A stretch of DNA of 64,000 bases from the NCBI RefSeq assembly GCF_000230735.2, contig NC_019962.1:248001-312000 (forward strand). The letters run 5' to 3'. The notes below the pieces were generated by a model that was given only the letters and a program-made list of their open reading frames with translations, was not told the origin of the DNA and did not search any database. Positions 56,433-63,976 of the stretch are shown one piece after another. The DNA comes from Natrinema pellirubrum DSM 15624 (lineage in GTDB: Archaea > Halobacteriota > Halobacteria > Halobacteriales > Natrialbaceae). How positions within the stretch are numbered: the stretch's first letter is position 1; each line of letters starts with the position of its first letter. Made by a program: the position numbers and the translations under genes.

Positions 56433-56520
56433 GGCTCGTGATACCGAGGCCAGCACATAGCCTCTTTCGACACGCGCGAAAATGAGAAGTGGTCGACGGG
56501 CCGGCGACCACGGGGCCGAA

Positions 56521-56787
56521 TCAGTCTTCTTCGCTTTCCCCGTCCGCCTCGGATTCTTCTTCGTCGTTGCTCGCCTCGGGTTCCCCGTCCGTTTCGGACG
56601 CTTCTTCCTCGTCGGCCGTCGTTTCCCCGTCTTCGCCCTCGACTTCGATCTCCGCTTCGACCTCGATCGAGAGTCCGTCGGCCTCGAGTTCGCCCTCGAA
56701 CTCGCGTTCGTCGCCGACCTCGATCTCGAGTTCGTTCGAATCCACTTCGACTTCGACCTCGACGTCGACGGTGACTTCGTCGTCCAT
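56521..56787 (-). CDS. Highly acidic low-complexity small protein
   Basis: 88 residues with about half Glu/Asp. Residues 1-50 alternate hydrophobic and acidic residues (VTVDVEVEVEVDSNELEIEV), a pattern that could form exposed beta strands; residues 51-88 are an acidic Ser/Glu-rich tail. Haloarchaeal by composition. No known family. It is convergent with nothing and divergent from the Rieske gene at 56899. Confidence 0.55.
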   Translation of the reverse strand: MDDEVTVDVEVEVEVDSNELEIEVGDEREFEGELEADGLSIEVEAEIEVEGEDGETTADEEEASETDGEPEASNDEEESEADGESEED

Positions 56788-56898
56788 ACGCCCGCTTCGC
56801 CGGGCACCCCTAAAGTGGTATCGCGCGTTTTCGGGAGTCGAACACGCCCGCTGTCGCCCGTCCGGAACCTATTTTTAGGCCGGCCGAAAAAGAGGGAT

Positions 56899-57447
56899 AT
56901 GACCGATCCCGTCCGGGTGACGCTCGAGGACGACGACGACGCGACCTCGGTCCGAGTTTACGACGACGAGGGCGACGTTTCGACCGACGGCGCGACGTTC
57001 CGGTTCAGCGTCGACGGGGACGGAAGCGGCGGCGACAACGCCGGCGCGGAACCGGCGGGGACCGATCCCGACCGCGAGCCACGCTACGTCGCACCGCTGT
57101 CGGCCGTCCCGACCGACGGCACGCTTCGCTGTGAGGCCCGCCGGGACCGTTGCGGGACCGAACTGATCCTCCGACGACGCGGTGACGACGTCCTCGCGTG
57201 GCGCAACTCCTGTCCCCACAAGCCCGAGGTCCGACTCGATCCCGGCCCTGGCGCGATCGTCAGGGACGACCAACTGGTGTGTCACGAACACGCCGCTCGC
57301 TTCGACTGTGACGACGGCGTCTGTACGGCCGGTCCCTGCCGGGGTGACGCCCTCGAGGAAATCGCGGTCGCCGTCCGCGACGGCAACGTCTATCTGACCG
57401 ACGACCGGTTCGATTCCTGCCGGCGGCTCGACGAGCCACGCGCGTAG
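56899..57447 (+). CDS. Rieske [2Fe-2S] domain protein
   Basis: 182 residues from the ATG at 56899 (MTDPVRVTLEDDDDATS). Residues 1-60 are an acidic N-terminal part. The Rieske cluster ligands are Cys-x-His in NSCPHKPEVRL (about 104-106) and Cys-x2-His in LVCHEHAARFDC (about 130-133). No oxygenase catalytic domain follows, so it is a stand-alone ferredoxin-type Rieske protein. A truncated receiver domain follows at 57476 on the same strand. Confidence 0.88.
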   Translation: MTDPVRVTLEDDDDATSVRVYDDEGDVSTDGATFRFSVDGDGSGGDNAGAEPAGTDPDREPRYVAPLSAVPTDGTLRCEARRDRCGTELILRRRGDDVLAWRNSCPHKPEVRLDPGPGAIVRDDQLVCHEHAARFDCDDGVCTAGPCRGDALEEIAVAVRDGNVYLTDDRFDSCRRLDEPRA

Positions 57448-59769: not shown

Positions 59770-59808
59770 GGCGGGACGTTTATGCCACCCGCGGCCATAG
59801 CCCTTGCT

Positions 59809-60330
59809 ATGCTCGTCGATATCGTGCCGGTCGGCAGCGTCCCCGCCGAGGTCAAGCGGGCGGCCTCCGCCGCGTTGCGATCGGTCTACGACTGCGACGT
59901 CTCGATCAACGACTCGCAGTCGGTCCCCAACGGTGCCTACGACTCCGACCGGAACCAGTACTCCGCCGAGACCTTCATCCAACTCGCCGAACGGGTCGGT
60001 CGCGGCGAGAAAAACATCGCGATTACCCCCCACGACCTCTTCTATCGGCGGCGAAACTACGTCTTCGGTCTCGCCTATCTCGACGGCAGCGGGAGCGTCG
60101 TTTCGACCTACCGGCTCCAGACCTCGAGCGACGGCGGCTTCTCGAATCAGAGCGCGGCCGATATCTTCGAGGACCGCGTCCGCAAGGAGATCGTCCACGA
60201 GATCGGCCATACCTACGGCCTCGAACACTGCGACAACAACCGCTGTGTGATGAACTTCTCGCCGACCGTCCGTGAGGTCGACATCAAAGAGGAGAACCTC
60301 TGTGGGAGTTGTCAGCGGCTGATTGGTTGA
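59809..60330 (+). CDS. amzA: Archaemetzincin
   Basis: 173 residues from the ATG at 59809 (MLVDIVPVGSVPAEVK). The zinc-protease motif VHEIGHTYGLEHCDNNRCVMNF (in blocks HEIGHTYGLEHC and CVMNFS, about 138-158), the Met-turn and the late CGSC form the HExxHxxxGxxH plus Cys4 signature of archaemetzincins. It is a soluble zinc peptidase; substrates are unknown. Its promoter region is shared with UPF0146. Confidence 0.93.
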   Translation: MLVDIVPVGSVPAEVKRAASAALRSVYDCDVSINDSQSVPNGAYDSDRNQYSAETFIQLAERVGRGEKNIAITPHDLFYRRRNYVFGLAYLDGSGSVVSTYRLQTSSDGGFSNQSAADIFEDRVRKEIVHEIGHTYGLEHCDNNRCVMNFSPTVREVDIKEENLCGSCQRLIG

Positions 60331-60529
60331 CTGTTATATTACACCATTTGCCCATCCATTTGTATAAGCAAGCTCTACGGTTGATCGAACCAGTAAATCA
60401 TCGTTGCTGCTATACTATTCCGGAAATTGGCCTCTCAAGCTAATAAACACTCTCACAGGCGGTCAGAAACGTTCATTCACATAATGTTTGCTACATTCAT
60501 AAATTATATCTAATCCATATTGATTTTTC
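60331..60529. other. AT-rich spacer at the start of the second island
   Basis: No gene seen; base composition drops sharply after the amzA stop. Confidence 0.5.
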
Positions 60530-60796
60530 TCAGCGAAGAACTAATAGAACAACTCCCACAAGACCAATTGCAGCGAACAGTACTGACAGCCATACTAAAA
60601 TGGGGTTTGGATCAAAATTGGCAGAACGCTTCCCGACTAATCGATACCCGGAACTGAGAAACATGCCAACACCTCCGATGAGCATGAGTGTAGTGACTAT
60701 ATTCGAATCATTGTTGGCTATACTCAAGAGAGAAATTACTGCAAGAGCGCCACCACCTATCAATCCAGAACCATGGAATAGGTTTTTCTTATCCAT
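60530..60796 (-). CDS. Small three-helix membrane protein of the halocin-like island
   Basis: 88 residues from the ATG at 60796 (MDKKNLFHGSGLIGGGA); a GTG at 60802 is possible. Hydrophobic segments lie at about 9-28, 34-50 and 66-87. AT-rich, like the two genes upstream on the same strand. It lies 88 bp past the cysteine-rich gene. Position and topology suit an immunity protein for a secreted peptide, but this is inference only. Confidence 0.55.
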   Translation of the reverse strand: MDKKNLFHGSGLIGGGALAVISLLSIANNDSNIVTTLMLIGGVGMFLSSGYRLVGKRSANFDPNPILVWLSVLFAAIGLVGVVLLVLR

Positions 60797-60884
60797 ACCC
60801 ACACTTTAATTCCGGTCTTGAAATAGCTTTGGGCACTATAATATTAATATGATATATTTCAGAAGATTTGAAGAAGGGGCGGCC

Positions 60885-61499
60885 TCAGAAGCACGTATTA
60901 TCATTACACCCCTCATTGACGCAAATAGCGCCCTCTGTAGTGCCAGATGCGGCGATGTAGTCCGGAAGTGATAGATATGATTTTGCCGCTGCGCAGAGCG
61001 TTGACGATCGTTCACCGAGACAACAACCGAGTCCACAGCCACATGAGGCACAGCCGATACAACCGAAGATTGCCGTCGGATTACCTATTGAAAGGCTACC
61101 ACAATTGGAACATGAGGCTCCACAACCAGCGATTGTACCGAGAATGACCGGAATGCTGTCGGGACAAGATGTCGCGGCGGTGGTCACACCTCCGTCGGTT
61201 GTATCAGTTCCCCTAACGCTCGAACCGCTAATTCGCTTTACTGTTTCTGTGTCCATATCTACTGTCATTACGAATGGCGTTGAATCAGTCTGGGATTCCA
61301 CTGTTGCTCTCTGCTCCGATTTTCCTCCGATTTGAGACGACAATTCAATAGCGTGGCTTTCGGTTTCGATTACTTCTGTCCCGAGAATGGATCCGGTATT
61401 ATCCTGTTCGGGAATTACATTGATTCCCTTGGTGACCTTTTCAGCACTACCGGTCACGATTGCGAACCCATTCAATGGTTCAGTGCTCTTCCATACCAC
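60885..61499 (-). CDS. Cysteine-rich C-terminal part of a halocin C8-like precursor
   Basis: 204 residues if read from a GTG at 61499 (VVWKSTEPLNGFAIV). The first about 105 residues resemble a pro-region. The last about 95 residues hold 14 Cys in clusters (CGASCSNCG, FGCIGCASCGCGLGCC, CNDNTCF), a hydrophobic disulfide-rich peptide like halocin C8, which has 10 Cys. The frame upstream stays open to about 61566, so this probably was the C-terminal part of the gene that starts at 61920. Alternative: an independent secreted or lipid-linked cysteine-rich protein. Confidence 0.6.
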   Translation of the reverse strand: MVWKSTEPLNGFAIVTGSAEKVTKGINVIPEQDNTGSILGTEVIETESHAIELSSQIGGKSEQRATVESQTDSTPFVMTVDMDTETVKRISGSSVRGTDTTDGGVTTAATSCPDSIPVILGTIAGCGASCSNCGSLSIGNPTAIFGCIGCASCGCGLGCCLGERSSTLCAAAKSYLSLPDYIAASGTTEGAICVNEGCNDNTCF

Positions 61500-61602
61500 G
61501 TGACCGAATTCAATGATATTAGTTTCTGAACTGAGGCTTTTCGACTTTGGTATTTGCCAAGAGGGTTATTATTTTCCTTCTGAAGGAGAGGTAGGAAGAC
61601 AG

Positions 61603-61920
61603 TCACGGCTTTTCTCTTCCATTTGTGACCTCGTTGGTCACCATTGCATCTTCTGCTGTTACTTTGTATCCTCGCTTGGAAAGACGTTCTCTGAGCGGTG
61701 CGTAATTGTTTCTCTCGGCGATGTCAAATATAGCCTTCTCGATATATCTGTTTGCTTTTCGTCCGTTTACTTCAATCACTTGATTTTCTCTTGCCTTGTC
61801 CACCGCGCTGACGCTACTCGTGACCGCTCCAGCACCGATTCCGGTTACGGTTGCCACGCTAGTGGTTTTGAGTAATCTCCGCCTGCTCAACTTTTGTTCT
61901 CCGCTATCTTCTCCACTCAT
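61603..61920 (-). CDS. Tat-signal N-terminal part of a halocin-like precursor
   Basis: 105 residues from the ATG at 61920 (MSGEDSGEQKLSRRRLLKTT). SRRRLLK plus a hydrophobic helix (ATVTGIGAGAVTSSVSA) is a twin-arginine signal. The region VNGRKANRYIEKAIFDI..LRERLSKRGYKVT resembles the pro/immunity region of halocin C8-type precursors in style. It ends at a TGA 104 bp before the GTG of the cysteine-rich frame, which is in the next frame (+1). A single gene broken by frameshift is the simplest reading. Confidence 0.6.
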   Translation of the reverse strand: MSGEDSGEQKLSRRRLLKTTSVATVTGIGAGAVTSSVSAVDKARENQVIEVNGRKANRYIEKAIFDIAERNNYAPLRERLSKRGYKVTAEDAMVTNEVTNGREKP

Positions 61921-62161
61921 TCCAATGGCAATTTATATTCTATGAGTAGTAAAACTTACTGAGGAACAGGATGTGTTATGAGAAAATGGCCATATGGAAA
62001 ATTACTACTATATGGCGTAATTTTCGACATTAATTGTAATATAATGGTGTACACTAAATAATTTAACAATAAGGATTAAAAAACTCGAAGAATCAACTTT
62101 CCTCCTTCCTTGATCAAATCTCTCCTCGTCTGATCCTCTAGAAGACGCTATTTGTTCTCGT
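61921..62161. other. AT-rich non-coding end of the island
   Basis: No gene seen. A hand count of 61921-61980 gives 20 G/C of 60, far below the 65% of host genes. It probably holds the promoter of the halocin-like gene. Confidence 0.5.
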
Positions 62162-63976
62162 TCAGGGCGCGTAGTAGTACTCGCCCTCGTCTTTCTGCTG
62201 GCGGTCCAGCTGGGACTCGGGTTTGTTGATCCGCGGTCGGGAGGTGCGCTCGTCGCGGCGGAACGTGACCTCGAGGTTCGCGAGGAACTCGTTCATGCCG
62301 TCGCGCATGGACTGGGGTTGGCCGGCACGGCCCTGAACGGCGGGCTCGCCGTCGAAGACCATCAGCCGGTCGGCGAGCAGGTCCATCATGTAGATGTCGT
62401 GGTCGATGACCAGCACGGTGGCGTCCTGCTGTTCGGCGTAGCGCCGGATCGCCTTCGTGGCCTGGACCCGCTGTTCAACGTCGAGGTGGGCCGAGGGTTC
62501 GTCGAGCAGGTAGAGATCGGCCGAATCGGAGAGACAGGCCGCGATGGCGACCCGCTGGCGCTCCCCGCCCGAGAGGTCCGAGAGGTTCTGCTCCATGATC
62601 CGCTCTAACTGCAAGGGCTGGGCGATCTCCGTGTTCCAGTACGAGGAGCCGAACTGGTCGGTGATCGACGAGAGGAACGCATCGACCCGCATGTGCTGGT
62701 CGATGGTGACGTACTGGGGCTTGTACGAGATGTCCAGATCGAGGTCGGCGTCGCCCACATCGGGCTCGAGGTTCCCTGTTAGCAGCTTCGCGAAGGTCGA
62801 CTTCCCGATCCCGTTGGGACCGACGACGCCCAGGACTTCGTTCTCCCGGATCGTGCCGCCCTCGACCTCGAGGGTGAACTCACCGTCGCCGTAGCTCTTG
62901 GTGAGGTCGGGATACTCGACGAGCGTATCGGCACGGCTCACGCTCCGGGGTGCGTGTTCCTCGAACTCGATCGGGTTCGGTCGGATCCGCATGTTCTCGT
63001 TGTCGAGATAGCCCGAGAGGTACTCGTTGATCCCGTTGCGGACGGACTTCGGCGAGGTGATGACCCCGTACGCGCCGGGTTCACCGTAGGCGACATGGAG
63101 CGTGTCGGCCAGCAGGTCCAAGATCGCGAGGTCGTGTTCGATGACCAGCATCGACTTGTCCTCCTCCTCGGCGAGTTCCCGGATCAGTCGCGCCGCGGTC
63201 ACGCGCTGGCCGATGTCGAGATACGGCGTGATCTCGTCGAGGAAGTAGAAGTCAGTGTCCCGGGCCAGCGTGGCCGCGATGGCTACCCGCTGGAGTTCCC
63301 CGCCCGAGAGGTCGTCGATCGACTGGTCCATGACCGGCCCGATCTCGAGGCGTTCGACCAGCGAGTCGAGGGCACCGCGCTCGTCGGTCCGCTCGAGCAG
63401 CTCGCGGGTGTTACCGTCGAAGCTCTCGGGGATCTGGTCGACGTACTGGGGTTTTCGGGAGATCGTCACGTCGCCGTCCCGGACGTCCGCGATGTAGTCC
63501 TGCAGTTCGGTCCCTCGGTAGGCTTCCAGCACTTCGTCCCAGCCCGGTTCCTCCTCGTGACGGCCGAGGTTGGGCTCGAGTTCGCCGGCCAGAATGCGGA
63601 CGGCGGTGGTCTTCCCGATCCCGTTCGGGCCGAGGATGCCGGTGACCTGTCCCTCCTGTGGAGCGGGCAGGCCGTACAGCGAGAAGGCGTTCTCGCCGTA
63701 GCGGTGAACGGGCTCGTCCTGCAGTTCCTGGGGCAGGTTGATGATCTCGATGGCGTCGAACGGACACTTCTCGACGCAGATCCCACAGCTCTCACCCAGG
63801 CAGATCTCCTCGGAGATGTGGATCTGCTCGGGCTGGCCCTCGGCGGCCTCCTCACCGCGGAGGGTAATACACTCCTTCCCGGTCCGGTTGGGCGGGCAGT
63901 AGTTCTTGCACTCGTAGCCACAGCGATCGGGCTGGCACCGATCGAGGTCTACGACGGCGATGCTGTCGTCGGCCAT
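62162..63976 (-). CDS. rli: Ribosome recycling ATPase ABCE1/RLI
   Basis: 604 residues. The N-terminal iron-sulfur domain has CGYECKNYCPP and LGESCGICVEKCPF (two 4Fe-4S sites). Two ABC cassettes: Walker A GPNGIGKTT and GPNGIGKST, signatures LSGGELQR and LSGGERQR, Walker B FLDEITPYLD and LLDEPSAHLD, and switch His in IEHDLA and IDHDIY. It splits terminated ribosomes with aPelota/aRF1 and is essential in archaea. The start at 63976 is standard. A few codons of another gene may lie just upstream (63978-64000). Confidence 0.97.
   Translation of the reverse strand: MADDSIAVVDLDRCQPDRCGYECKNYCPPNRTGKECITLRGEEAAEGQPEQIHISEEICLGESCGICVEKCPFDAIEIINLPQELQDEPVHRYGENAFSLYGLPAPQEGQVTGILGPNGIGKTTAVRILAGELEPNLGRHEEEPGWDEVLEAYRGTELQDYIADVRDGDVTISRKPQYVDQIPESFDGNTRELLERTDERGALDSLVERLEIGPVMDQSIDDLSGGELQRVAIAATLARDTDFYFLDEITPYLDIGQRVTAARLIRELAEEEDKSMLVIEHDLAILDLLADTLHVAYGEPGAYGVITSPKSVRNGINEYLSGYLDNENMRIRPNPIEFEEHAPRSVSRADTLVEYPDLTKSYGDGEFTLEVEGGTIRENEVLGVVGPNGIGKSTFAKLLTGNLEPDVGDADLDLDISYKPQYVTIDQHMRVDAFLSSITDQFGSSYWNTEIAQPLQLERIMEQNLSDLSGGERQRVAIAACLSDSADLYLLDEPSAHLDVEQRVQATKAIRRYAEQQDATVLVIDHDIYMMDLLADRLMVFDGEPAVQGRAGQPQSMRDGMNEFLANLEVTFRRDERTSRPRINKPESQLDRQQKDEGEYYYAP

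Follow-up and report, generated by a model that had tools for sequence, protein, structure and literature searches.

The DNA between two core genes of Natrinema pellirubrum DSM 15624, those for archaemetzincin and ABCE1/RLI, raises the question of whether a cysteine-rich, halocin-like peptide precursor is encoded there and, if so, whether its gene is whole. The window, that is, the whole stretch of 64,000 nucleotides that was analyzed, carries on one strand a Tat-signal ORF, a frame rich in Cys and a short hydrophobic ORF. The original prediction took these for a broken precursor gene and a possible immunity gene. Our analysis indicates that the first two are probably the remains of one decayed gene for a Tat-exported, Cys-rich peptide precursor of the general halocin C8 type, belonging to a rare variant group with 12 to 18 Cys. 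The features of the locus are as follows.

59803–60330, (+) strand: archaemetzincin, flank of the insert.
60331–62161, no strand: AT-rich insert of about 1.8 kb and about 45% GC, between archaemetzincin and ABCE1/RLI.
60530–60802, (−) strand: hydrophobic protein of 90 residues with roughly three predicted transmembrane helices, which either is a candidate for immunity or occupies the site independently.
60885–61565, (−) strand: 3′ piece of the putative broken precursor, with the rest of the pro-region and the Cys-rich C-terminus (226 codons from stop to stop).
60891–61166, (−) strand: putative mature 14-Cys peptide domain; all 14 Cys align with those of homologue L092, and the C-terminal profile has matches in five genomes.
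61548–61619, (−) strand: interval holding both frame changes, from frameshift-aware alignment to homologues L092 and L137 and the stop positions in each frame.
61603–61920, (−) strand: 5′ piece of the putative broken precursor, the Tat-signal ORF (ATG start, 105 residues, twin-arginine motif SRRRLLK), with the Tat signal and the first part of the pro-region; stop at 61605–61603.
62162–63976, (−) strand: ABCE1/RLI, flank of the insert.

The predicted coordinates of the Tat-signal ORF, the Cys frame and the hydrophobic ORF were re-read from the sequence and are correct. The Cys frame, read from GTG at 61499 to 60885, has 204 residues, and the predicted cluster of 14 Cys is present in its last 95 residues. 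When the insert was shuffled 500 times by dinucleotides, no shuffle reached 14 Cys per 95 residues (maximum 9, mean 5.1), and an open frame of at least 226 codons arose in one of the 500. The Tat-signal ORF scores 17.5 bits against TIGR01409, for which the cut-off is 16.7. The island is AT-rich as had been described, with a GC content of 48% for the precursor region and 44% for the membrane gene, compared with 64% for the whole window.

The arrangement in homologues should be noted first, since it bears on whether the two frames belong together. All homologues found carry the Tat signal, the pro-region and the Cys-rich C-terminus, in this order, within a single ORF (L024, L005, L015, L018, L021 and L032/L038, with L092 and L136/L137 added by profile searches), whereas in the window copy these parts are spread over different frames. 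The uninterrupted ORFs encode 318 residues with 14 Cys in L092, about 319 residues with 18 Cys in L136/L137 and 286 residues with 12 Cys in L024, and about 15 more Tat/Cys-rich precursors have the same order. The frames are thus not always separate genes, and the view of a single, broken gene stands.

When the window DNA was aligned to L092 with frameshifts allowed, the alignment ran from the Tat-signal ORF through a stretch in the third frame into the Cys frame. The frame changes near 61604 and again near 61548, and the score is 274, compared with 225 when no frame change is allowed. In an independent alignment to L137, the changes fall near 61619 and 61554; for L024, the most distant relative, the program returns a single change together with a stop. 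Upstream of the Cys frame, the DNA scores 82, 62 and 80 against the N-termini of L092, L137 and L024, respectively (shuffle maxima 42, 36 and 48). The exact break points are uncertain because the linker between the ORFs is poorly conserved and, taken alone, does not score above shuffles against the same three N-termini. The Tat frame is closed at 61605 and the Cys frame at 61571 and 61568, and the sole open frame between 61605 and 61571 is the third one. With stops at these positions, a single frame change is not sufficient to connect the two ORFs, and the minimum is two frame changes or one combined with a read-through stop. The predicted break is accordingly retained, with the refinement that one change is not enough, and the precursor gene reads as at least doubly broken or twice mis-assembled. 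Programmed frameshifting was rejected as an explanation, since two changes are needed and no such case is found in the relatives.

Alternatively, the two frames could be separate genes working together, one for a short Tat-exported protein and the other for a cytosolic Cys-rich protein. In favor of this, each frame offers a possible start codon and stays open over a useful length. However, the homologous pro-region extends well to either side of GTG at 61499, which has no ATG ahead of it in the Cys frame and is unlikely to be a start codon. The Cys-rich part would also be left without an export signal, and both parts are in one ORF in every homologue found. Two cooperating genes are thus very improbable.

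A gene that is intact in the organism deserves more weight, though it is still unlikely. The two frame changes would then be sequencing or assembly errors in short A or C runs, and a working 14-Cys halocin-like precursor would be encoded. The stretch is AT-rich, and each of the inferred changes is close to a short homopolymer run; all 14 Cys and the 226 open codons of the 3′ frame also survive, which means that the break must be recent if it is not an assembly error. On the other hand, two errors within about 70 bp would be required. Of the 21 ORFs in the close genome G005 with a match in the window, none has a broken frame (the one split match consists of two pieces 2.6 kb apart), and the three other halocin-type precursors of the window genome are intact, two of them being AT-rich. 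These two observations favor a real, recent pseudogene over an assembly error.

With the pseudogene as the preferred reading, the closest intact counterpart found is L092, in genome G155. All 14 Cys of L092 are in register with those of the window copy, with 44% identity over 88 C-terminal residues, and the two are alike in layout; L092, with a GC content of 47%, differs in being one open frame. A helix-turn-helix gene and a 143-residue four-helix membrane gene lie upstream of L092, and no small membrane gene lies downstream. In class-wide searches of 391 genomes, the C-terminal profile gives E-values of 2.7e-35 for L136/L137, 1.8e-30 for L092 and 5e-16 for L024. At convincing E-values, both samples searched, each of about 390 genomes, yield the same five genomes and no others (5/391): the window genome, G155, G075, G349 and G367, which represent four genera and two families. 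The intact 12- to 18-Cys precursors are found in the four other genomes, from three genera and two families. DNA-pattern scans of genome contigs and viral contigs, and tblastn against plasmids, revealed no further relatives. In the first protein search, most matches (those longer than 1000 residues, L004, L007) were chance Cys-rich or unrelated frames and were discarded. An AlphaFold model of intact L092 from four sequences has a pLDDT of 30 and was set aside. At L015 424–1398 and L136/L137 2587–3294, Cys-rich precursors from two different haloarchaeal families adjoin a gene that has the motif PEYTGENRCxxC and no NCBIfam match.

The cassette has entered a site that is variable among genomes. 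The archaemetzincin gene is present in all 29 genomes of the genus, and its distance from ABCE1 is 23–148 bp in most of them versus 1.83 kb in the window. The flanks are 96–97% identical to the closest genomes up to the borders of the insert, where similarity ends at 60332 and 62162. In the three closest genomes (G004, G005 and G007), the gap is 406–436 bp and its sole content is a gene of 64% GC for a relative (30–34% identity) of the 90-residue protein of the window. Among the genomes compared, the AT-rich precursor cassette occupies this site in the window genome only, and a few others have unrelated inserts here. The gap is thus filled differently across genomes, and the intergenic site is an insertion spot. 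Different genes are found at the site in L060–L063, L068, L069, L073 and L079, among which L068, L073 and L079 have an esterase-like gene with a GxSxG motif. A search of the insert for direct repeats or obvious integration borders gave nothing convincing.

In the original prediction, the 90-residue protein that follows the precursor could give immunity. Of 20 distinct Tat/Cys-rich precursors, 8 are followed within 350 bp by a small multi-helix ORF on their own strand, versus 1 of 65 control genes (Fisher p 2e-5); when either strand is counted, the figures are 12/20 and 5/65 (Fisher p 3e-6). Both comparisons are weakened by the control genes, whose GC content exceeds that of many precursor loci. 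The counts leave out window 56482–57447 (a Rieske-like frame) and L132 6483–7265 (an antisense frame), two automatic precursor calls that were discarded. This enrichment is what would be expected if the three-helix protein (60530–60802) were the dedicated immunity protein of the precursor. Contrarily, the small membrane proteins beside different precursors are unrelated to one another by blastp. Relatives of the 90-residue protein are widespread (47 of 199 genomes), no Cys-rich precursor lies within 1.5 kb of them in the 19 loci examined, and in the three closest genomes they occupy this very site alone. A PHROGs search gave no convincing match (best 0.003, for the membrane protein). The evidence is thus mixed, and the original suggestion is weakened: immunity through the three-helix protein is possible, but a dedicated immunity protein is somewhat doubtful. 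Elsewhere, tandem pairs of Tat/Cys-rich precursors accompanied by one two-helix membrane gene occur at L097/L005 (G045) and L093/L094 (G036, G162); these pairs are candidates for two-peptide halocins.

The relationship with halocin C8 differs between the two halves of the precursor. A profile of the pro-region, built from the window copy and its relatives with the Tat signal left out, matches halocin C8 precursors at 95% (E 3.3e-8, for a single comparison), and at 98.5% when the Tat signal is included. The Tat signal recognized by TIGR01409 is thus followed by a pro-region related to that of halocin C8, and together with the single-ORF homologues this bears out the predicted layout of signal, pro-region and Cys-rich C-terminus. 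The C-terminal Cys-rich profile, by hhalign, gives 0.3% with the halocin C8 peptide and is not aligned. TIGR04449 (halocin_C8_dom) has no match above its curated cut-off in the window ORFs, L092, L137 or L024, in line with the predicted Cys spacing, different from and denser than that of halocin C8 (14 versus 10 Cys); PF22862 (Hac8_like_N) likewise has none above its gathering score in the window ORFs or the intact relatives. Judged by its sequence, the window gene is halocin-precursor-like in layout, but the models that were tested place it outside the halocin C8 family proper.

This divergence leaves room for a Cys-rich domain that is not antimicrobial but a signaling, adhesion, metal-binding or redox peptide, with the halocin-like N-terminus serving merely as a shared device for export and folding. 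No profile similarity links the C-terminal domain to halocin C8, and it has no sequence match in Pfam, NCBIfam or, by profile search, the PDB. Nevertheless, the gene plan is the same, and the patchy distribution (5/391), the AT-rich inserts and the frequent small-membrane-protein neighbors are as expected for bacteriocin-type genes. We regard a non-antimicrobial role as rather unlikely and retain a halocin-type peptide.

The window genome also encodes three intact halocin-C8-domain (TIGR04449) precursors, L107 (G000:C1:3772296), L123 (C1:2343158) and L038 (C1:2069264), which points to a halocin-type producer lineage; across the family, 22 of 125 genomes have such precursors. L107 very closely resembles halocin C8 precursors from other genomes in this family. 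Its model has a confident pro-domain at residues ~46–156, two helices followed by five strands, and an unreliable Cys-rich part. Comparison of the model with PDB structures gave no clear match (best Foldseek E 0.09; best Z 6.3 in a second comparison), a result that speaks neither for a known fold nor for a new one. The predicted pro-domain fits the helix-loop-helix motif that, according to the title of a paper cited in PMC11509114, is reported for HalI immunity.

By analogy with halocin C8, the intact relatives would act as follows. A precursor of about 290–320 residues would be exported by Tat, and a protease would then free a C-terminal peptide of about 90–100 residues, whose 12–18 Cys would form disulfides. 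The released peptide may inhibit related haloarchaea, while the producer may be guarded by the pro-domain, as by HalI for halocin C8, and/or by a small membrane protein. In the window copy, the frame seems to have been lost at least twice inside the pro-domain, the region corresponding to HalI. Unless the assembly is in error, this damage would prevent production of both the exported peptide and the complete pro-region.

Sequences are known for very few halocins, and halocin annotation rests on two models, both of which miss this 12- to 18-Cys group. The window copy is probably dead; its interest lies in the intact precursors to which it points in four other genomes, which can be expressed and tested, and in the idea of one pro-region carrying unrelated Cys-rich effectors. 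It is conceivable, though less likely than not, that halocin-C8-type precursors are modular, a shared Tat signal and pro-region for export and self-protection carrying exchangeable, unrelated Cys-rich effectors. The window copy and the four intact precursors related to it would then form an effector class of their own, with a previously undescribed disulfide pattern. The window copy also suggests that the pro-region may serve to find more Cys-rich peptides of unrelated sequence.

Among known systems, HalH4 with HlyR4 and HFX_0892 likewise involve a secreted precursor from which a protease frees the active fragment (PMC12893001), a likeness of description; HFX_0892 releases an N-terminal helical fragment rather than a Cys-rich C-terminus. 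The closer parallel is ProC8, which is exported by Tat and then cut into the immunity part HalI and a mature peptide of 76 residues (PMC11509114). The halocin C8 precursor (ProC8/HalC8) and the variant group share a Tat signal, a related pro-region, a Cys-rich hydrophobic C-terminus and a length of about 280–320 residues. They differ in the C-terminal peptide, which has about 92–100 residues, 14 (12–18) Cys and CxxCxxCxC and CC motifs in the variant group, whereas that of halocin C8 has 76 residues and 10 Cys; the window copy differs further from the halocin C8 precursor in its broken frame.
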